NCBI GenBank assembly: GCA_035714365.1
Contig: DASTMB010000014.1
Location: 1-55,719, forward strand
Reading direction: 5' to 3'
DNA length: 55,719 nt
Source: Mycobacteriales bacterium
GTDB taxonomy: Bacteria > Actinomycetota > Actinomycetes > BP-191
Shown: positions 45,926 to 55,719 of the stretch, in pieces
Layout: the number at the start of each line of letters is the position of its first letter
How positions within the stretch are numbered: position 1 is the stretch's first letter
Made by a program: the position numbers and the translations under genes
The notes under the pieces: generated by a model
Database searches by the model: none
Told to the model about the DNA's origin: nothing
What the model saw: the letters and a program-made list of their open reading frames with translations, nothing else

Positions 45926-48900
45926 TCAGGGCAGCTTCGCCCCGACGACGCCGCGGTAGGCCGGCTGGCCGCTCGCCTTCGGGTGGAAGCTGCCGGAGCC
46001 CGGGTTGTTGTAGCCGCTCCCGGACTCGCTCGACACGATGATCGCGTTGATCCACTCCTCGGCGGCGTCGGTGCACGCCTCGTGGGTGAAGAACGGCGAG
46101 CGCATGTCGGCGAACGCCACCCCGGTGTTCGCGGCGGCCGTCGCCATCTGCTGCGTCATCAGGTCGCCCATCTGGCCCATCCAGTCGGCGATCGGGTCGT
46201 CGATCTGCGCGTCGCAGCTCCAGGCCGGGTTGATCGAGCCGTTCCAGATGACGTGCGGGTACCCGACGAGCACGATCTTCGCGTTCGGCGCGAGCGCCTT
46301 GATGTCGCGCAGGACGCCTTCGAGCGGCGCCTCCAGGCCCGTGATCACCTTCGGCTCGTACGTCGTCATCGGCTCGGGGTCGAGCTGCCCGTCGCGCGTG
46401 AGGTAGTAGTCGTCCGCGATGCAGTAGTGGGTGGTCATGATGCAGCCCTTGAGCACGTCGGCGAACCCGGCGTCGTTGCCGCCGATGCTGATGCTGACGT
46501 GCGTGGTGTTCGCGTCGAGCCACCCCTGCTGGAGCTGCGGGACCTCGCCCCACTGCGGCACCAGCCCGCTGACGTTCTTCATCACGGCGCCGCTGCACGC
46601 CTGGAAGTGGAACTCCGAGGTCCCCGGGTGGCGCAGCCGGAGGTCCTGGTAGACCCCGACCGGGTACGCCTGCGGCGAGCGGTGGCAGGCGTTCTTGCGC
46701 AGCGGCGTCCGCCCGCCGATGTCGGCGTTCGGGTAGTACGGCTCGATGCCCTCGCCCGCCGAGTACGAGTCGCCGAACGCGACGTAGCTCACGACCGGCT
46801 TGGCCGACGGTACGAACGCCACGGCGTCCCACGCGATCGACGTCGGGTCGCTGATCTTCCAGTCGTCGTACGTCGTGTTGCTCAACGAGACGCTGGCGCC
46901 GGTGAGCAGGTTGAACGACCCGAGGTCGACCCAGGAGTTCTTGTTCCACCGCTGGTTCACGGTGCGGTGGAAGCTGCCGGTCCCGGTGAGCACGCGGTAG
47001 TCCGCCTGGAACGTGTCGGCGCCGTGGTCGGGGACGTGCACGAAGATGCGCTGCCACCCGGTCGTGGTCGCGGGCGGCCGCCAGGTGCCGGTGACGACGT
47101 TCGCGGTGCGCGCCGGGTCGGTCGTGTGCCCGAACCAGAAGTGCCCGCGGGCGCCGCCGCCGATCTGGTGGAAGTCGATCGCCGACAGCGCGTTGCCGCT
47201 GCTGTCGGTGCCGAACGTCAGCGTGAACGTGCCGCCGGAGGCGAGCTCCGGGCAGCCGACGATGTTCTTCGCGGTGGGCAGGTCGTCGACGATGGTGGCG
47301 TTCGCGGGCAGCGCGCCGAGGTCCGGCGACGTCGGCACCCCGGACTCGAAGCCGGTGCAGGACGGCGGGTGCGGGTTCGACGCGACCGGCTCGGGCGCGC
47401 CCTGCTGGTACGCCGCGGCGTTCTCCGGCTCGCCGGGGTCCTGCGACGGCAGCCAGCTCGACTGCCCGTGCCACCAGCACTTGCGGTCGGTGCGGGTGCA
47501 GAAGCTCTTGGAGAAGTCGGTCTGGTCGACATACGCCGGGTCGCACTGGTTGACGGTCTTGACGCAGAACTGCGACCAGACGGGGACGTTCACCCAGTCC
47601 GCGAGGTCGACGTACGAGCGCCGACCCAGGTAGTCGAGCTGCGCCGACTCGGCCCAGCCGATGACGCGCTCCTGGTACGGCCAGTCGCTCGGGTGCGCCG
47701 CGTCCTCGTACGTCGTGCGGAGGAACTTCTGCCGGTCGAGCGGGTAGTCGGCGTTCGCCGGGTTGTTGGTCCAGCCGACGCCGTAGGGGTTGGTGCCCGA
47801 CGGCGCGTAGACGCCGGTGTTGTAGCCCCAGATGGCGAAGTACCAGTTCTCGACGATCGTCGGCGTGCCGGTGTGCGCGTACGTGACCTGCGAGCGGAGC
47901 TGGTTCCACTTCTCGCCGAGGACGCGCAGGCCGGCCGCCATGTTCGCGGCGTAGTCGGTGGCGATCATCTTCCGCTGGTCGGCCGTGTAGTAGGTGTCGC
48001 CCGTGGTCATGTGGTCGGTGACCTGGGCGATGCCGTAGCCGCAGTCCGCCTTGGTGTAGTCCATGCCGATGATGGCGCCGCTGCTGCTGTACGTGACGCC
48101 GTAGTAGTCGGCGATCAGCGGGTTGCCGGCGGTGCCGGGCAGCGCGTGGTAGCTGGCCTGCTTGAGGTTCGCCTCCTGGGCGAGGATGCCGAGCAGCACC
48201 TGGGCCGGGACCCGGCCGCCGCCGGTGAGGACCGGCGCGGGGAACGTCCCCGGCGCCTGCGGCGCGTAGGCCGTGAGGCCGTTGTTGTTCCAGTTCGGCG
48301 GGCGCAGCGTGGTGAGCTCGCCGCGGACCGCGCGGTGGGCCGCCCACTCGACCTGGGCGGCGGTCGGCTGCATCACCTGGATCGACGGGTCGTTGCGCGG
48401 GACCGCGCACTTCGGCGGGCCCGAGGCGGTGGCGCCGGCCGTGGTCGCCGCGGGCAGCGCGGCGCCCGGCGCGTCCGGGAACGCCGGGCCGACCACCTGC
48501 GACGTCGACGGCGCCTCGTGCCCGCCGGGGACGGCGCTGGTCACGGTCGTCCCGCCGTCGCCGCCCGCCGCGAGGCCGGTGACGACCGCGGAGCCGTCGA
48601 GCGACACGGCCTCCGGCCGGCCCGTCGTGCGCAGCACGCGGACGCCGCGCGCGACGTGCCGCGGGTCGCCGGCGAGGGCGTTCGCCCCGCCGCGGCCGGG
48701 GGCGATCCGCAACGACCCGAGCGCGGCGTCGGCGAGCGCCGTCAGCGAGCCGTCGCGGCCGCGCCGGACGGCGGTCACCGTGTCCGGCGCCGCGACGAGG
48801 TAGTCGAGCGCGCCGCCGCTCGCCGGGTGCAGGTCGAACACCGGCCCCGGCGCCGCCGCCAGCTCGCGCACGTGCCCCGCCCGGTCGACCGCGACGACGC

Positions 48901-49522
48901 GGCGCCCGGCCGCGGCCGCGACGGCCGAGCCGAACGGCACCGCCGCGGTGAGCTGCCCGCGCACCCGCGGCCGCGCCACGACGCGCCGCGCCGCGGCGTC
49001 GACGAGCAGCACCTCCGTCGCCTCCTGGTCGCGGCCGAGGTGCCGGACGAAAGCCACGTCGTCGCCCGTGCCGCAGCCGGGCGTGTGGTACTTCAGCGCG
49101 ACCCGCTCGGGCAGCGTCCACCGGCTGCCGTCGCGCAGGTCCAGCACCGCCGCCCACGCGCCGCGGTCGCGGAGCACCGGGCGGTTCGCGGCGGCGCGCG
49201 GCGCGAACGTCACCGCGACGTACCGGCCGCTCCCGGTGACGCAGGAGTAGCCGGTCCAGCCGTCCGCCTCCATGCCTTCGACGGCGAAGTGCCCGGCGAC
49301 GGCCCACCCACCGGTGCCGGCGGGGGCGGGGACGAGGACCTCGACCCCCGCCGGCCCGGCGCTGGTGACGGCGAGGACGTCGCCGGGCGCCAGGGGCACC
49401 GGCGGTACGGCCGGTGCGTCGTGCGGTGCGGGCGGTCGCGCGGCCGGCGGCGCGGAGGCCGCCGGCACGGCCAGCGCGGTGGCGACCAGGGCCGCGGCCG
49501 CGGCAAGCAGGGACGTGCGCAT
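45926..49522 (-). CDS. Multidomain exported protein: propeller, transglycosylase-like, golvesin-like and SGNH esterase
   Basis: A 1198-residue secreted protein. Signal peptide: TSLLAAAAALVATALAVPAA. About 45-330 are short repeated strands that look like a beta-propeller. About 440-580 resemble a lytic-transglycosylase fold: RVPAQVLLGILAQEANLKQ (candidate catalytic Glu near 451), GIAQVTDHM and WNQLRSQVTYAH. About 790-905 resemble a golvesin C-terminal domain (GWQRIFVHVPDHGADTFQAD, WVDLGSFNLLTGASVSL). About 910-1198 form an SGNH esterase: YVAFGDSYSAGEG with nucleophile S919, ISIGGNDAGF with the oxyanion Asn, and SGSFHPKASGQPAY with the catalytic His. It lacks a C-terminal anchor. The ATG follows AAGGAACCCC. 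A joint wall-glycan cleavage and deacylation role is inferred from domain order. Confidence 0.85.
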   Translation of the reverse strand: MRTSLLAAAAALVATALAVPAASAPPAARPPAPHDAPAVPPVPLAPGDVLAVTSAGPAGVEVLVPAPAGTGGWAVAGHFAVEGMEADGWTGYSCVTGSGRYVAVTFAPRAAANRPVLRDRGAWAAVLDLRDGSRWTLPERVALKYHTPGCGTGDDVAFVRHLGRDQEATEVLLVDAAARRVVARPRVRGQLTAAVPFGSAVAAAAGRRVVAVDRAGHVRELAAAPGPVFDLHPASGGALDYLVAAPDTVTAVRRGRDGSLTALADAALGSLRIAPGRGGANALAGDPRHVARGVRVLRTTGRPEAVSLDGSAVVTGLAAGGDGGTTVTSAVPGGHEAPSTSQVVGPAFPDAPGAALPAATTAGATASGPPKCAVPRNDPSIQVMQPTAAQVEWAAHRAVRGELTTLRPPNWNNNGLTAYAPQAPGTFPAPVLTGGGRVPAQVLLGILAQEANLKQASYHALPGTAGNPLIADYYGVTYSSSGAIIGMDYTKADCGYGIAQVTDHMTTGDTYYTADQRKMIATDYAANMAAGLRVLGEKWNQLRSQVTYAHTGTPTIVENWYFAIWGYNTGVYAPSGTNPYGVGWTNNPANADYPLDRQKFLRTTYEDAAHPSDWPYQERVIGWAESAQLDYLGRRSYVDLADWVNVPVWSQFCVKTVNQCDPAYVDQTDFSKSFCTRTDRKCWWHGQSSWLPSQDPGEPENAAAYQQGAPEPVASNPHPPSCTGFESGVPTSPDLGALPANATIVDDLPTAKNIVGCPELASGGTFTLTFGTDSSGNALSAIDFHQIGGGARGHFWFGHTTDPARTANVVTGTWRPPATTTGWQRIFVHVPDHGADTFQADYRVLTGTGSFHRTVNQRWNKNSWVDLGSFNLLTGASVSLSNTTYDDWKISDPTSIAWDAVAFVPSAKPVVSYVAFGDSYSAGEGIEPYYPNADIGGRTPLRKNACHRSPQAYPVGVYQDLRLRHPGTSEFHFQACSGAVMKNVSGLVPQWGEVPQLQQGWLDANTTHVSISIGGNDAGFADVLKGCIMTTHYCIADDYYLTRDGQLDPEPMTTYEPKVITGLEAPLEGVLRDIKALAPNAKIVLVGYPHVIWNGSINPAWSCDAQIDDPIADWMGQMGDLMTQQMATAAANTGVAFADMRSPFFTHEACTDAAEEWINAIIVSSESGSGYNNPGSGSFHPKASGQPAYRGVVGAKLP

Positions 49523-49741
49523 GTAGGGGTTCCTTCGTAGGGGTGGCGGGGCGGGGACGTCAGCGGGAGCGGCGGTGGGGCGACCGTGGGCGGGCCGCCG
49601 CGCGGGCGTTACGGCGCGCGACGGAGCGCGCGTGCCGGCAGCCGGCGAACGACGTCATCCAGGACCCCCCTTGCGAGGGCGGAACCGTACGGCGGCCGCG
49701 CGGGCGTGTCCAGGGGGGTTCGCGCGACCGGAAAGCACGAC

Positions 49742-49771
49742 GCGCACCGGCCGGGGGCCCGGCCGGTGCGC
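49742..49771 (-). terminator. Terminator hairpin of the polyester hydrolase gene (repeat copy 1)
   Basis: GCGCACCGGCC (49742-49752) pairs exactly with GGCCGGTGCGC (49761-49771). It lies 11 bases after the stop at 49782. The surrounding sequence, from GGAAAGCACGA to CATCGGG, is almost the same as at 50669-50716. Confidence 0.8.
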
Positions 49772-49781
49772 ATCGGGGTGG

Positions 49782-50642
49782 CTACGCGTGCGGGCAGGTG
49801 GCGCGGTACTCCTCGATCTGGGTGCTCGGGGCGGGCGCCGGGCAGAGGAACTGGTCGTAGCGGGTGTCGTTGTCGACGAACCGCTTGAGCCAGGCGAGCG
49901 CGTACCGCGACGTCGCCGGGTTGTCGCTGTTGGTCGTGCTGTGCGAGGCGTTGTTCAGCTCCAGGTACGCCTTCTCCACGGCGTTGGTGAGGCTGGTGTA
50001 GAACGGCTCGGCGTGGTCGGCCACCGGCGCGACCGTGTCCTTCTCGGCCCCGACGATCAGCGTCGGCGTCACCGGCTCCGGCCAGGTCTTGTCGGTGTGC
50101 CACGGCGCGAGCGGCACGGCGGCCTGCAACGACGGCCGCGTCTTGATCGCCTCCAGCGAGCCGCCGCCGCCCATCGAGTGGCCCATGACGGCGAGCCGCG
50201 ACGCGTCGACCCGCGCCTTCACGCTGCTGCTGCCGGTGAGGTAGTCCAGCGCCGCGAGGAGCTGCGTGCCGCGCGCGGCCGGCTGGTCGAACGACGAGTT
50301 CGTGTTGAACGTGATGACGACGAAGCCGTGCGACGCGAGCCGCGGCCCGAGCCACGAGATCGCCGACTGGGTCTCGGTGTAGCCGGGGGAGACGGCGATG
50401 CCGCCGAGCGTCGGCAGCGTCGTGCTGGTCGGGTAGTAGATGGTCGCCGCGCCGAAGCCGGGGGTGGCGCTGTCGGCGACGGCGGTGGACGTCCAGGCGA
50501 ACGGGCCGTTCGCCTCGAGCGCGGCGACCGTCGGGTCGGGACCGACGCGGTACTCGGTCTCCGCGCCGGCGGGCGTGCCGAGCAGGGTGGTGGCGAGGGC
50601 GAGCGCCGCGAGGGCGGCGCCGAAGGGGGTCTTCCTGGTCAC
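49782..50642 (-). CDS. Secreted cutinase/PET-hydrolase-like polyester hydrolase
   Basis: A 286-residue alpha/beta hydrolase. A signal peptide precedes a mature start at AETEYRVGPDPTVAALEANG. It closely follows the fold order of Thermobifida-type cutinases: GFGAATIYYP, AVSPGYTETQSAISWLGPRL, ASHGFVVITFNT, LAVMGHSMGGGGSL, LAPWHTDKTW, IVGAEKDTVAPVADHAEPFY, KAYLELNNASH and the end segment WLKRFVDNDTRYDQFLCP. The triad is S156, D202, H234; oxyanion residues are Y88 and M157; W181 lines the cleft; C267-C283 is the conserved C-terminal disulfide. The residue after the catalytic His is Ser as in IsPETase, while the residue before the nucleophile is His as in cutinases. The family is secure; the natural substrate is probably cutin or another polyester. 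Confidence 0.93.
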   Translation of the reverse strand: MTRKTPFGAALAALALATTLLGTPAGAETEYRVGPDPTVAALEANGPFAWTSTAVADSATPGFGAATIYYPTSTTLPTLGGIAVSPGYTETQSAISWLGPRLASHGFVVITFNTNSSFDQPAARGTQLLAALDYLTGSSSVKARVDASRLAVMGHSMGGGGSLEAIKTRPSLQAAVPLAPWHTDKTWPEPVTPTLIVGAEKDTVAPVADHAEPFYTSLTNAVEKAYLELNNASHSTTNSDNPATSRYALAWLKRFVDNDTRYDQFLCPAPAPSTQIEEYRATCPHA

Positions 50643-50677
50643 GGTGGTGCCTTTCTCGGTAGGGGTCGGGAAAGCAC

Positions 50678-50713
50678 GATGCGCACCGGCCGGGGGTCCG
50701 GCCGGTGCGCATC
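50678..50713 (-). terminator. Terminator hairpin of the sialidase-like gene (repeat copy 2)
   Basis: GATGCGCACCGGCC (50678-50691) pairs perfectly with GGCCGGTGCGCATC (50700-50713). It lies 43 bases after the stop at 50756 and in the leader region of the hydrolase gene. Confidence 0.8.
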
Positions 50714-50755
50714 GGGAGTGCGCGCCGGTGGTGCTGGCGAGGTGGTGCCGCCGGG

Positions 50756-52111
50756 CTACGGCGTGATCGCGTCGTACGCCGCGTAGAGGCCCTTGCCGGT
50801 GCTCTGCCGCGAGATCGTGGCGTACGCCGACGTGGACTGCTTGGCCGTGCCGGAGGACGTGGCGCAGGTGGAGATGCAGCCGTCGGCGTAGCCGATGACG
50901 ACCCGGCCGTCCTTGGCCAGCGCGGTGTCCATGAAGTCGAGCAGGTTGCGGCAGGAGTTGGAGCCGCCGCCGTCCCAGATGCAGCCGCGCTGCACCGGGT
51001 CGGTGGAGACCTTCACCGTCTGCCACGTCACGCCGCCGTCGTAGGAGTACGAGGCGAAGAGGTTCCACACGCCGTTGTAGCCGTTCTCGAACGGCACGCC
51101 GGTGCCGGACTGCGAGCCGAGGAACGTCACCGCGACGCGGCCGTTGTCACCGGCGACGACGTTCTGGAACGTCGACGCGGTGATCGCCGGGGTCACGGTG
51201 TTCGAGAGGTCGGTGAGGTTCGTCCACGAGCCGTTGGCGCCGTGGTTGGTCGACTTCGCGACCATCGGGTGGTAGTTGCCGCCCTGCGCCCACGCCTCGT
51301 ACACCGTGTTGTCCGGCGTGGTCGCGACCGACGGGTCGAAGCCGCGGTCGGCCGAGACCGAGCCGTTGATCGTGTAGCTGCTCCACGTCAGGCCGTTGTT
51401 GGTGGTGATGCCGCCGCCGACCTGGCTGCCGCAGAAGTTGTTCGGCAGGTACGCGGTGCCGTCGGCCGAGACCTTCACGTGGCCGTGCAGGCTCATGCAG
51501 GCGCCGGAGACGACCATCGGGTTGCCGAACGTCAGGCCGCCGTTGAGGCTGGTCGCGCAGGCGTCGTAGCCGTTCTGCGCGCAGTAGTAGACGGCGCGGC
51601 TGTAGGTGGAGCCGATCGGCGCGCTGCCGTGCCACGGGCCGGACCCGATGGACTCGTGGTCGACCACGCCGGCGCAGCTGTTCGTCATCTGCTGCCAGCT
51701 CGTGCCGTCGTTGTCGGAGTACCAGAGGGTGCTGCACTCGCCGGCCAGGCCGCCCGCGAACGTGCGGCCGGTCACCGTGTCCGTCGAGAGGATCGGGTCG
51801 ATGTTGAGGATGCTGCCGGTGGGGGTGCGGTTGGTCCACGTCGCCGTGGCGGGGACGGTGGCGTCGTTGAACGTCACCTTGTAGGTCGAGGCGTATGCCT
51901 GGTACATCACCGCGCCGGTGTTGCGGTCGATGCCGATCGACGGCTCGCCGGCGTTGTTGGCGTTCGGCATCGACGACGGCGCGGCGTACGTCGCGAACGT
52001 CGGGGTGCCGGTGCCGGCGGTGGCGGTCGGCGAGGGGGTCGCGACGCCGACGACGGCCGCGGCGACCGCGACGACGCCGGCGAACACGGCGGCTCTGGTG
52101 CGCTTGCGCAT
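50756..52111 (-). CDS. Secreted sialidase-fold (BNR) protein
   Basis: A 451-residue exported protein. The signal peptide is TRAAVFAGVVAVAAAVVGVA. The body is a six-bladed propeller with Asp-box-like turns (YSDNDGTSWQQ, TNNGLTWSS, YSYDGGVTWQT) and GEPSIGIDRNTGAVMYQAYA. About eight Cys suggest disulfides (AGECST, TNSCAGV, CAQNGYDACA, GACMS, CIWDGG). Catalytic residues of true sialidases (Arg triad, Tyr/Glu) are not evident, so a binding or scaffold role is more likely. The ATG is eight bases from GGAG, with CCCCTAC just upstream. It is related in fold to the 30194 product but lacks the sorting tail. Confidence 0.83.
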   Translation of the reverse strand: MRKRTRAAVFAGVVAVAAAVVGVATPSPTATAGTGTPTFATYAAPSSMPNANNAGEPSIGIDRNTGAVMYQAYASTYKVTFNDATVPATATWTNRTPTGSILNIDPILSTDTVTGRTFAGGLAGECSTLWYSDNDGTSWQQMTNSCAGVVDHESIGSGPWHGSAPIGSTYSRAVYYCAQNGYDACATSLNGGLTFGNPMVVSGACMSLHGHVKVSADGTAYLPNNFCGSQVGGGITTNNGLTWSSYTINGSVSADRGFDPSVATTPDNTVYEAWAQGGNYHPMVAKSTNHGANGSWTNLTDLSNTVTPAITASTFQNVVAGDNGRVAVTFLGSQSGTGVPFENGYNGVWNLFASYSYDGGVTWQTVKVSTDPVQRGCIWDGGGSNSCRNLLDFMDTALAKDGRVVIGYADGCISTCATSSGTAKQSTSAYATISRQSTGKGLYAAYDAITP

Positions 52112-52225: not shown

Positions 52226-52313
52226 GTGACGGTTGGGACCTAAGTCACAAGTTTCGGGAGACCTCGCCGGAAACGCCCCAGAGAGCCGGGATCCCGGAGA
52301 TGCTTCCGGGATC
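52226..52313 (+). promoter_or_regulatory. Structured leader of the repeat-protein gene
   Basis: GTGAC (52226-52230) pairs with GTCAC (52244-52248), and GATCCCGGA (52290-52298) pairs perfectly with TCCGGGATC (52305-52313). The stretch GGGACCTAAGTCACAAG at 52235-52251 looks unlike the surrounding DNA. It is a folded 5' UTR candidate for the gene starting at 52355. I cannot match it to a known riboswitch class by eye. Confidence 0.4.
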
Positions 52314-52354
52314 GCTGCCCGTGTTCTCGGGCGCCCTCCGAAGGGGGAAAGGCC

Positions 52355-55300
52355 ATGCTGGGTCGCACGACGAGCCGATCGGCGCGTACGGGCGCTAAGG
52401 GCCTTCCCGCCCGGGCACGGGCGCTGCTCGTGATCGCCGGGGTCGTGGCGGTCAGCGGCCTCGCCGCCGTCATCGCCGAGGCGGTGACGCCCCCCGCGTA
52501 CGCGGCGACCGCGGCGATCACGCCGAAGCTGTACTACATCGGCGACTCCGCGGGCTCGATCTACGAGTTCACCGTGAAGAACACGGGGACCACCGCGACC
52601 ATCGGCGCCGTCCAGATCAGCCGGCCCTCCACCGGCTGGTCGCTCAGCGGCTGCCCGACGCCCCCGACCGGGTGGACCGCCCAGCTCTCCGACCCGAAGT
52701 GCCGCTTCCGCAGCGCCACCGGCACCACCGACGACATCAAGCCCGGCCAGTCCCGCACGTTCTACGTCAAGGCCAAGACGGCCGCCGGCATCAACGACGT
52801 CGTCGGCACGTGGAGCGTCGTCGTCAGCAAGTCCAACCAGTTCGACAACACCAGCCTGCTCAAGACCGCGACCGCGGGCGGCGCCGGCCTGACGACCTAC
52901 CTCTACACCTTCGAGGTGAGCGGCGCGGTCGTCGCCGACCTCCCGTCGACGCCCAACGGCGCCTGCCCGGCCGTCAACAAGGCCGCGCTGGTCGGCTCCA
53001 CCAAGACCATCGTCGTCTGCGGCAAGAACCACGCCAGCTCGCCGCTCACCCCGACCGCCGCGCGCTCGACGCTCGGCGGCACGTTCGTGCAGACGCCGGG
53101 GACCTTCGCGTCCGCGCCGATCTCGGCCGGCAGCGGCACCGTCGTCCTCGCCAACTGGGTCGGCACCACCGTCAACGGCACCTACGGCAACGGCTACAAG
53201 GTCATCGCCGGCATCGGCTCGGCGGTCAACCGCACCTCGCCGCTGCGGACGTTCACCGGCTACTCGGCGACCAGCCACCCGCCGGTGGCCAACAACGACA
53301 CGTACTCGACCGACGAGGACACGCCGCTGACGGTGACCGCGCCGGGCGTGCTGGCCAACGACACCGACGCCGACGGCGACCCGCTGACCGCGTCGCTGAC
53401 CACCGCGCCGGCCAACGGCACCGCCACGGTCAACGCCGACGGCTCGTTCACCTACACGCCGAACGCGAACTTCAACGGCACCGACTCGTTCACCTACAAG
53501 GCGAACGACACGCACACCGACTCCGCCGCGGCGACCGTGTCGATCACGGTCAACGCCGTCAACGACGCGCCGGTCGCGGCGGCCGTCACCGACACCACCG
53601 CCGAGGACGCGCCGAAGAGCGTGACGCTGTCGGCGACGGACGTGGACGACGACGCGCTGGCGTTCTCGATCGTGACCGGGCCGGCGCACGGCTCGCTCGG
53701 GGCCGTCGGCACGCCGGACTGCACCGCGGCGAACTCCTGCACCGCGTCGGTCACCTACACGCCGGACGCCAACTACCACGGCGCCGACTCGTTCACCTAC
53801 AAGGTCAACGACGGCACCGCCGACTCGAACACCGCGACGGTCACGCTCACGGTGACCACGGTCAACGACACGCCGGCCGGCAGCAACGACGCGTACTCCA
53901 TCGACGAGGACACCGCGCTGCCGGTGACCGCGCCGGGCGTGCTAGCCAACGACACCGACGCCGACGGCGACACGCTGACGCCGGTGCTCGAGTCCGGCCC
54001 GGCCAACGGGTCGCTGACGCTGAACGCCGACGGGTCGTTCACCTACACGCCGAACGCGAACTACAACGGCACCGACTCGTTCGCCTACCACGCGACCGAC
54101 GGCACGGCCGACTCCGCCAGCACGACCGTGACCATCACCGTCAACGCGGTCAACGACGCGCCGGTCGCGGCGCCGGTGTCCGACTCCACCGCCGAGGACG
54201 CGCCGAAGAGCGTGACCCTGTCGGGGAGCGACGTGGACGACGACGCGCTGACGTTCGCCATCGTGACCGGGCCGGCGCACGGCTCGCTCGGCGCCATCGG
54301 CACGCCGGACTGCACCGCCCCGAACGCCTGCACGGCGACCGTCACCTACACCCCGGACGCGAACTACCACGGCGCCGACTCGTTCACCTTCCGGGTCAAC
54401 GACGGCACGGCGGACTCCAACGTCGCCACCGTGACGCTGACGGTGACGACGGTCAACGACACGCCCGCCGGCAGCAACGACTCGTACTCGACCGACGAGG
54501 ACACCCAGCTCGTCGTCTCGGCACCGGGTGTGCTGGGCAACGACACCGACGCCGACGGCGACACGCTGACGCCGGTGCTCGAGTCCGGCCCGGCCAACGG
54601 CTCGCTGACGCTGAACTCCGACGGCTCGTTCACCTACACGCCGAACGCGAACTACAACGGCACCGACTCGTTCGCCTACCACGCGACCGACGGCACCGCC
54701 GACTCCGCGAGCACGACCGTGACGATCACGGTCAACGCCGTCAACGACGCGCCGGCCGCGGCCGCGGTCTCCGACTCCACCGCGGAGGACGCGTCGAAGA
54801 GCGTGACCCTGTCGGGTACCGACGTGGACGACGACGCGCTGACGTTCGCGATCGTCACCGGCCCGGCGCACGGCTCGCTCGGCGCCGTCTCGGCCGCCGA
54901 CTGCACCGCGCCGAACGCCTGCACGGCGACGGTCACGTACACGCCGGACGCGAACTACCACGGCGCCGACTCGTTCACCTACAAGGCGGACGACGGCACC
55001 CTGGAGTCGAGCGCCGCCACCGTCACGCTGACCGTCACCTCGGTCAACGACGCCCCGGTCGCGACCGACGACTCGGTCGCGACGAACGAGGACACGCCGG
55101 CGTCGGTGAGCGCCGCCTCCGGCGTCCTCGCCAACGACACCGACGCCGACAGCGACCCGCTCACGGCGGTCCTGGTGACCGGCCCGGCGCACGGCACGCT
55201 GACGCTCAACGCGGACGGGTCGTACCTGTACACCCCGGCCGCCGACTACAACGGCCCCGACTCGTTCACCTACAAGGCGAACGACGGCACCGCCGACTCG

Positions 55301-55719
55301 AACGTCGCGACGGTCTCGATCACGGTCAACGCCGTCAACGACGCGCCGGTCGCGGCGCCGGTGTCCGACACGACGCTCGAGGACACCGCGAAGCCGGTCA
55401 CGCTCTCCGGCACCGACGTGGACGACAGCGCGCTGACGTTCGCGATCGTCACCGGCCCGGCCCACGGCTCGCTCGGCGCGATCGGCGCCCCGGTCTGCGC
55501 GACCGGCTGCACCGCGAGCGTCACCTACACGCCGGACGCGAACTACGCCGGCCCCGACTCGTTCACCTACAAGGTCAACGACGGCACCGTCGACTCCTCC
55601 GCCGCCACGGTCAGCCTGACCGTGACCGCGGTCAACGACGCGCCGGTCGCGGCCGACGACACGTACCAGACCATCCAGGACGCCGACCTCGTCGTCGCGG
55701 CGCCCGGCGTCCTCGGCAA
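52355..55719 (+). CDS. Giant secreted tandem-repeat (VCBS/cadherin-like) adhesin (3' partial)
   Basis: The coding frame is open from ATG 52355 to the window end (1121 codons) and continues beyond. A long signal region (ALLVIAGVVAVSGLAAVIAE, cleavage near AYAAT) precedes a 280-residue N-terminal part with YYIGDSAGSIYEFTVKNTGT and several Cys. From 53279 onward there are alternating Ig/cadherin-like repeats of 96-101 residues. Type A has DEDTPLTVTAPGVLANDTDA and DGSFTYTPNANFNGTDSFTY. Type B has EDAPKSVTLS, DVDDDALTF, GPAHGSLG, a Cys pair and YTPDANYHGADSFTY. Such arrays occur in calcium-stiffened adhesins and matrix proteins. The ATG follows AAGGGGGAAAGG. The C-terminal anchor or secretion signal lies outside the window. 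Confidence 0.88.
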   Translation, partial: MLGRTTSRSARTGAKGLPARARALLVIAGVVAVSGLAAVIAEAVTPPAYAATAAITPKLYYIGDSAGSIYEFTVKNTGTTATIGAVQISRPSTGWSLSGCPTPPTGWTAQLSDPKCRFRSATGTTDDIKPGQSRTFYVKAKTAAGINDVVGTWSVVVSKSNQFDNTSLLKTATAGGAGLTTYLYTFEVSGAVVADLPSTPNGACPAVNKAALVGSTKTIVVCGKNHASSPLTPTAARSTLGGTFVQTPGTFASAPISAGSGTVVLANWVGTTVNGTYGNGYKVIAGIGSAVNRTSPLRTFTGYSATSHPPVANNDTYSTDEDTPLTVTAPGVLANDTDADGDPLTASLTTAPANGTATVNADGSFTYTPNANFNGTDSFTYKANDTHTDSAAATVSITVNAVNDAPVAAAVTDTTAEDAPKSVTLSATDVDDDALAFSIVTGPAHGSLGAVGTPDCTAANSCTASVTYTPDANYHGADSFTYKVNDGTADSNTATVTLTVTTVNDTPAGSNDAYSIDEDTALPVTAPGVLANDTDADGDTLTPVLESGPANGSLTLNADGSFTYTPNANYNGTDSFAYHATDGTADSASTTVTITVNAVNDAPVAAPVSDSTAEDAPKSVTLSGSDVDDDALTFAIVTGPAHGSLGAIGTPDCTAPNACTATVTYTPDANYHGADSFTFRVNDGTADSNVATVTLTVTTVNDTPAGSNDSYSTDEDTQLVVSAPGVLGNDTDADGDTLTPVLESGPANGSLTLNSDGSFTYTPNANYNGTDSFAYHATDGTADSASTTVTITVNAVNDAPAAAAVSDSTAEDASKSVTLSGTDVDDDALTFAIVTGPAHGSLGAVSAADCTAPNACTATVTYTPDANYHGADSFTYKADDGTLESSAATVTLTVTSVNDAPVATDDSVATNEDTPASVSAASGVLANDTDADSDPLTAVLVTGPAHGTLTLNADGSYLYTPAADYNGPDSFTYKANDGTADSNVATVSITVNAVNDAPVAAPVSDTTLEDTAKPVTLSGTDVDDSALTFAIVTGPAHGSLGAIGAPVCATGCTASVTYTPDANYAGPDSFTYKVNDGTVDSSAATVSLTVTAVNDAPVAADDTYQTIQDADLVVAAPGVLG
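53279..55719 (+). repeat. Alternating A/B protein-coding tandem repeat, 591-bp period
   Basis: The repeat end motif VND(A/T)P begins at 53561, 53864, 54152, 54455, 54743, 55046, 55337 and 55634. Spacings alternate 303, 288, 303, 288, 303, 291 and 297 bases, so an A+B pair spans 591 bases, with one 594. The second and third pairs are nearly identical at nucleotide level, indicating recent duplication. The array continues past the window. Confidence 0.9.

Follow-up and report, generated by a model that had tools for sequence, protein, structure and literature searches.

Position 238 of IsPETase (S238, equivalent to F243 in LCC and F209 in TfCut2) is a main engineering hot-spot in PET hydrolases. 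A hydrolase encoded on a 55,719-nucleotide stretch of DNA from a Mycobacteriales bacterium (the window) carries the IsPETase serine there together with the histidine that cutinases place ahead of the nucleophile, which raises the question of whether this enzyme stands between the type I cutinases and IsPETase or belongs with the type I enzymes themselves. The evidence favours the latter: the protein probably belongs to the type I side of the cutinase/PET-hydrolase family, as a stand-alone carboxylic ester hydrolase that an actinobacterium secretes, and it is a useful but ordinary family member, whose residue pair is already known from a laboratory-made cutinase mutant. The gene and its leader are placed as follows.

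49782-50642, minus strand: putatively secreted hydrolase of 286 aa, PF12740 (PETase/cutinase-like), with S156-D202-H234, H155, S235, E90 and C267/C283.
50565-50642, minus strand: putative Sec signal peptide, residues ~1-26 (VTRK, a hydrophobic run, then TPAGA followed by E), from sequence reading and low pLDDT at 1-26.

The initial annotation gave no strand for this open reading frame, which is a real gene of 286 codons on the minus strand, starting at GTG with GAGAAAGG about 8 nt 5' of it; the translation opens VTRKTPFGAALAALALATTLLGTPAGAETEYRVGPDPT and closes EYRATCPHA before the stop codon. The typical hydrophobic N-terminus ending in AGA before E suggests that the product is secreted. The match to the Pfam family PF12740 (PETase, PET hydrolase-like) has an E-value of 1.1e-108 and 363.1 bits against a curated cut-off of 28, and so lies well outside chance, while the equivalog model NF051441 of NCBIfam (bis(hydroxyethyl) terephthalate hydrolase) scores the protein at 428.9 bits, under its curated cut-off of 520. 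The gene is single-copy, with one match above cut-off in the whole genome assembly, and its composition gives no signal of horizontal transfer (GC 72.7%, GC3 99.7%, window 74.1%). A search for an MHETase-like tannase partner found no match in the genome, yet the controls gave none either.

The nearest kin are actinobacterial type I cutinases and lipases, with roughly 60-64% identity to those of solved structure, the best PDB matches being the Thermomonospora curvata hydrolase 7YKQ, the ancestral PETases 8ETX-8EU1, the S. exfoliatus lipase 1JFR, PET40, and PHL7. Identity to the hydrolase is 63-64% for 7YKQ, 61% for 1JFR, 55% for TfCut2 and 46% for IsPETase, the reference letters of IsPETase, Moraxella lipase 1 and the Acidovorax depolymerase having been confirmed or corrected against the PDB, and those of 7YKQ, 8ETY, 7Z6B and 8AIS having been copied from PDB alignments. 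The description of the protein as following Thermobifida cutinases nearly block by block is thus right as to family but loose as to closest relative. An AlphaFold2 model computed from 40 aligned homologues reaches a mean pLDDT of 89.5 and a pTM of 0.86, confidence being low in the signal region, and its top structural match is again 7YKQ, at 63% identity and TM 0.97 by target length. The T. curvata alpha/beta hydrolase (7YKO/7YKP/7YKQ) shares the fold, the triad, the histidine ahead of the nucleophile and the lack of a second disulfide, but 7YKQ has a His-Phe-Phe-Pro-Gln loop and an Ala where the present enzyme has His-Ser-Thr-Thr-Asn and Glu90. The assignment to the PET-hydrolase family is borne out by Pfam, PDB matches, predicted fold and tree alike.

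Alignment to IsPETase confirms the proposed triad S156-D202-H234, which corresponds to that of IsPETase, as well as its numbering. The nucleophile lies in the block GHSMGGGGSLEA (motif GHSMG) and the catalytic histidine in NNASHSTTNSDNP (SHSTTNS). IsPETase W159 becomes H155, the type I histidine ahead of the nucleophile, and S238 is retained as S235 after the catalytic histidine, a departure from the Phe/Tyr expected of type I; both residues had been read correctly. The Trp159 plus Ser238 signature of type IIb is therefore present only in its serine, the tryptophan being replaced by histidine. As had also been noted, the second disulfide of IsPETase is missing, C203/C239 being A199/T236 and the only cysteines C267 and C283; the extended loop is absent too, with a three-residue gap at N244-S245-N246, so that neither the second disulfide nor the loop of type II is found. 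The Trp-wobble positions S214/I218 are the cutinase-like H210/F214, and subsite I (Y88, M157, W181, V204) is within the family range. The idea of a mixed cutinase/PETase site is literally right for H155 and S235, but the type-diagnostic features are type I at all positions except S235. The GGGGSL after the nucleophile, pointed out alongside the serine, is present but carries no IsPETase signal, as 1JFR shares the GHSMGGGGSLEA block including GGGGSL, along with a single C-terminal disulfide; 1JFR differs in having Phe after the catalytic histidine, in keeping the loop proline, and in having Ala at the Glu90 position. Type III PETases of the HaloPETase1 group have a G-H-S-Q-G motif and Tyr for the clamp Trp (PMC13396203), neither of which occurs here (GHSMG, W181).

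Two other features, overlooked earlier, are more unusual than the pair of histidine and serine. IsPETase Ala89 is replaced by Glu90, at a position that is Ala or Gly in most of the family and Glu in only 8 of 177 homologues, and the loop of the catalytic histidine has lost the conserved proline at 237, unlike the reference enzymes aligned. Both traits are common to the congener and two other genomes.

How often the His+Ser pair occurs was counted in two samples. One comprises the 80 homologues nearest to the query, taken from genomes of named species and biased in its favour; the other is an evenly drawn class sample of 395 genomes, 78 with the gene, giving 98 sequences with the window. Position 238 among the closest homologues is F in 49, S in 22, L in 5, M in 3 and N in 1, the serine being paired with His in 20/80 and with Tyr in 2/80; class-wide it is F in 70, L in 15, G in 6, S in 3, M in 2, N in 1 and I in 1, with the His+Ser pair in 3/98. 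Because the first sample leans towards the query, its 25% is an upper figure for the pair, and the 3% of the class sample is less affected by bias. Among the bearers are Actinoplanes, Winogradskya, Saccharothrix, Kibdelosporangium, Umezawaea, Lentzea, and Luteipulveratus. Joo et al. 2018 found His with Phe/Tyr in all 57 type I enzymes they examined (PMC5785972). Some 29-39% of the homologues in the two samples break the Phe/Tyr rule, which is too narrow and not generally valid for type I. The pair is thus recurrent in soil actinobacterial type I relatives and is not a demonstrated intermediate.

The Ser-bearing type I homologues L053, L037, L021, L055 and L049 (Actinoplanes, Winogradskya, Saccharothrix, Kibdelosporangium and Umezawaea) likewise combine His and Ser with no type II marks, but differ from the present enzyme (~60-63% identity) in a SAPT/SAPS loop that keeps the proline and in Ala or Gly at the Glu90 position. 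No solved structure with the pair is found among the PDB matches listed, and PDB searches with L053 (Ser) and L030 (Phe) returned no near-identical chain; an enzyme from Actinoplanes sp. DH11, DP043, has been crystallised (PMC12455559). CaPETase (7YM9; PMC10382486) is also actinobacterial, loop-less and limited to one disulfide, and also deviates from the type I cleft residues, but at the other residue of the pair, with Trp168 ahead of the nucleophile. Elsewhere among the homologues, L185 (G208, 1-714; 38% identity) combines His ahead of the nucleophile with Cys at the two positions of the second IsPETase disulfide, an actinobacterial instance of the type II cysteine pair, and L182 and L183 (G080) are very divergent copies on long branches, in which Tyr or Trp precedes the nucleophile and HLLP/HLRP follows the catalytic histidine.

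That the enzyme is a true intermediate on the way from type I cutinases to type IIb IsPETase, with its Ser238 acquired before the tryptophan, the disulfide and the loop, is a reading to which we give very little credence. It shares with IsPETase the triad and the serine after the catalytic histidine, but lacks Trp159, the C203-C239 disulfide, the three-residue loop, S214/I218, and any other type II mark. The proposed intermediate pattern is not supported, in view of the recurrence of the pair in type I relatives and of A199/T236, the missing loop and H210/F214. An earlier tree in which IsPETase was the sole type II row did set it alongside the Ser clades, at low support (48/0 and 66/85); since this placement was unstable, five type II references were used instead in a maximum-likelihood tree of 81 rows from which the diagnostic column was omitted. 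In the best tree type II splits from the remainder at 100/98 and attaches near LCC and TfCut2, away from the Ser clades, while the hydrolase lies among Phe-bearing and Ser-bearing type I enzymes rather than outside the polyester-hydrolase clade, where the initial annotation would have counted its reading as refuted. The hydrolase joins its congener at 100/92 and, with Luteipulveratus and a Frankiales MAG, forms a set of four rows at 100/96, near a second Ser clade (Actinoplanes/Saccharothrix) within a 27-row group (93/91); both Ser clades could form a single one (79/52). As type IIa rows have Phe/Tyr at position 238, the serine of type IIb appears to be derived within type IIb, and independent origins in the hydrolase clade and in IsPETase are the simplest reading, though not a proven one. 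The deep placement is not firm, since trees that join type II to the hydrolase clade survive an AU test (p 0.397).

With the enzyme placed on the type I side, two further readings concern what it does. One, rather improbable in our view, makes it a lipase or esterase like that of S. exfoliatus, lacking any polyester activity of note: 1JFR counts among its closest relatives of solved structure and E90 may hinder flat aromatic substrates, but the fold closely matches polyester-active relatives, and the family includes PET40, a PETase by its PDB title, and SM14est, PCL-degrading by the title of its paper. The other, which we hold to be quite unlikely, makes it a PET-active enzyme better than TfCut2 at ambient temperature through its natural His+Ser pair, a natural TfCut2 F209S. 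This engineered variant, a laboratory mutant of a thermophilic cutinase, has the same pair, His129 and Ser209, but Gly62 at the position of Glu90, and hydrolyses low-crystallinity PET film at 5.4 instead of 2.5 nmol min-1 cm-2, roughly a doubling, while the F209S and H129W double mutant is less active than either single mutant (Furukawa 2019, PMC6831586). In IsPETase, one study saw activity fall with W159H and with S238F as single changes, while another reported a slight improvement for the double variant W159H/S238F (PMC8745736). Together these data argue that His+Ser makes a chemically competent cleft, and the listed elements of the functional motif proposed for PETases are present in the hydrolase (PGY, GGGG, Met after Ser, the triad, and DxDxRYxxFxC at 257-267). 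Set against this, TfCut2 was assayed at 65 C; the hydrolase departs from the aligned reference enzymes in E90 and the lost Pro 237; and its pI is 5.2 against 9.4 for IsPETase and 9.3 for LCC. Glu and His at the back of the cleft were described as unfavourable for PETase activity in marine variants (PMC12224614), which, with Glu90 so rare among homologues, counts against strong PET activity, and Glu90 with the Pro-less loop may lower it.

On the preferred type I reading, catalysis would follow the standard serine-hydrolase route, with Ser156 attacking the ester carbonyl, His234/Asp202 relaying the proton, and the oxyanion hole provided by backbone atoms of Tyr88 and Met157. The substrate would be held in an open cleft flanked by Tyr88 and Trp181, where Ser235, replacing the usual Phe, would widen subsite II and Glu90 would put a charge into it. 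By analogy with its relatives, the natural substrates are most likely cutin- or suberin-like or other aliphatic polyesters and lipid esters, and the most probable role is to break down natural polyesters or lipid esters outside the cell, any PET activity being incidental or promiscuous.

The gene is present in 2/3 genomes of the genus examined, no full homologue being found in the congener G001, and a conserved operon was rejected, as the neighbours are not kept in the congener G002 or in L002, L003, L004 and L007. The gene lies between those at 45926-49522 and 50756-52111, all three on the minus strand, and is flanked by a direct repeat of about 46 bp (49731-49776 and 50670-50715) with a near-perfect GC-rich hairpin (two mismatches), whose 24-bp core occurs at these two places only in the 3.8-Mb assembly.

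49739-49774, minus strand: strong hairpin 7 nt past the hydrolase stop codon (RNA fold -39.4 kcal/mol, z -5.2), which probably terminates transcription of the hydrolase gene.
50678-50713, minus strand: hairpin almost identical to the first, in the gap that separates the upstream gene from the start of the hydrolase gene (RNA fold -39.8 kcal/mol, z -8.5), which probably terminates transcription of that upstream gene.

The paired repeats look like matching terminators, or else they may be the trace of a local duplication or cassette. The 45926-49522 gene encodes a secreted protein of 1198 aa, in which Pfam finds a GDSL hydrolase domain at the C-terminus and a golvesin-C domain, and which has paralogues at 63% and ~45% elsewhere in the genome and none in the two congeners. 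The 50756-52111 gene encodes a secreted protein of 451 aa, with nine copies in the genome and 3-5 in congeners; by eye it is apparently a sialidase/BNR-type repeat protein, and Pfam returned no match when the region was scanned. Across 52300-55700, long antisense frames whose translation is repetitive and R/V/G-rich suggest a gene with internal repeats.

Actinobacteria vary position 238 widely, and the recurrent combination of Ser with His is the one that helped TfCut2, so that the census points to scaffolds worth assaying. That the small subclade of this genus, the Frankiales MAG and Luteipulveratus has a distinct subsite II, with Glu90, His155, Ser/Asn235 and the Pro-less histidine loop, and that this gives a substrate or pH preference different from other type I polyester hydrolases, and possibly a useful polyester activity at ambient temperature, is a doubtful but conceivable proposal. 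In an otherwise ordinary enzyme, it is this Glu90/Ser235 subclade that offers the target for assay.
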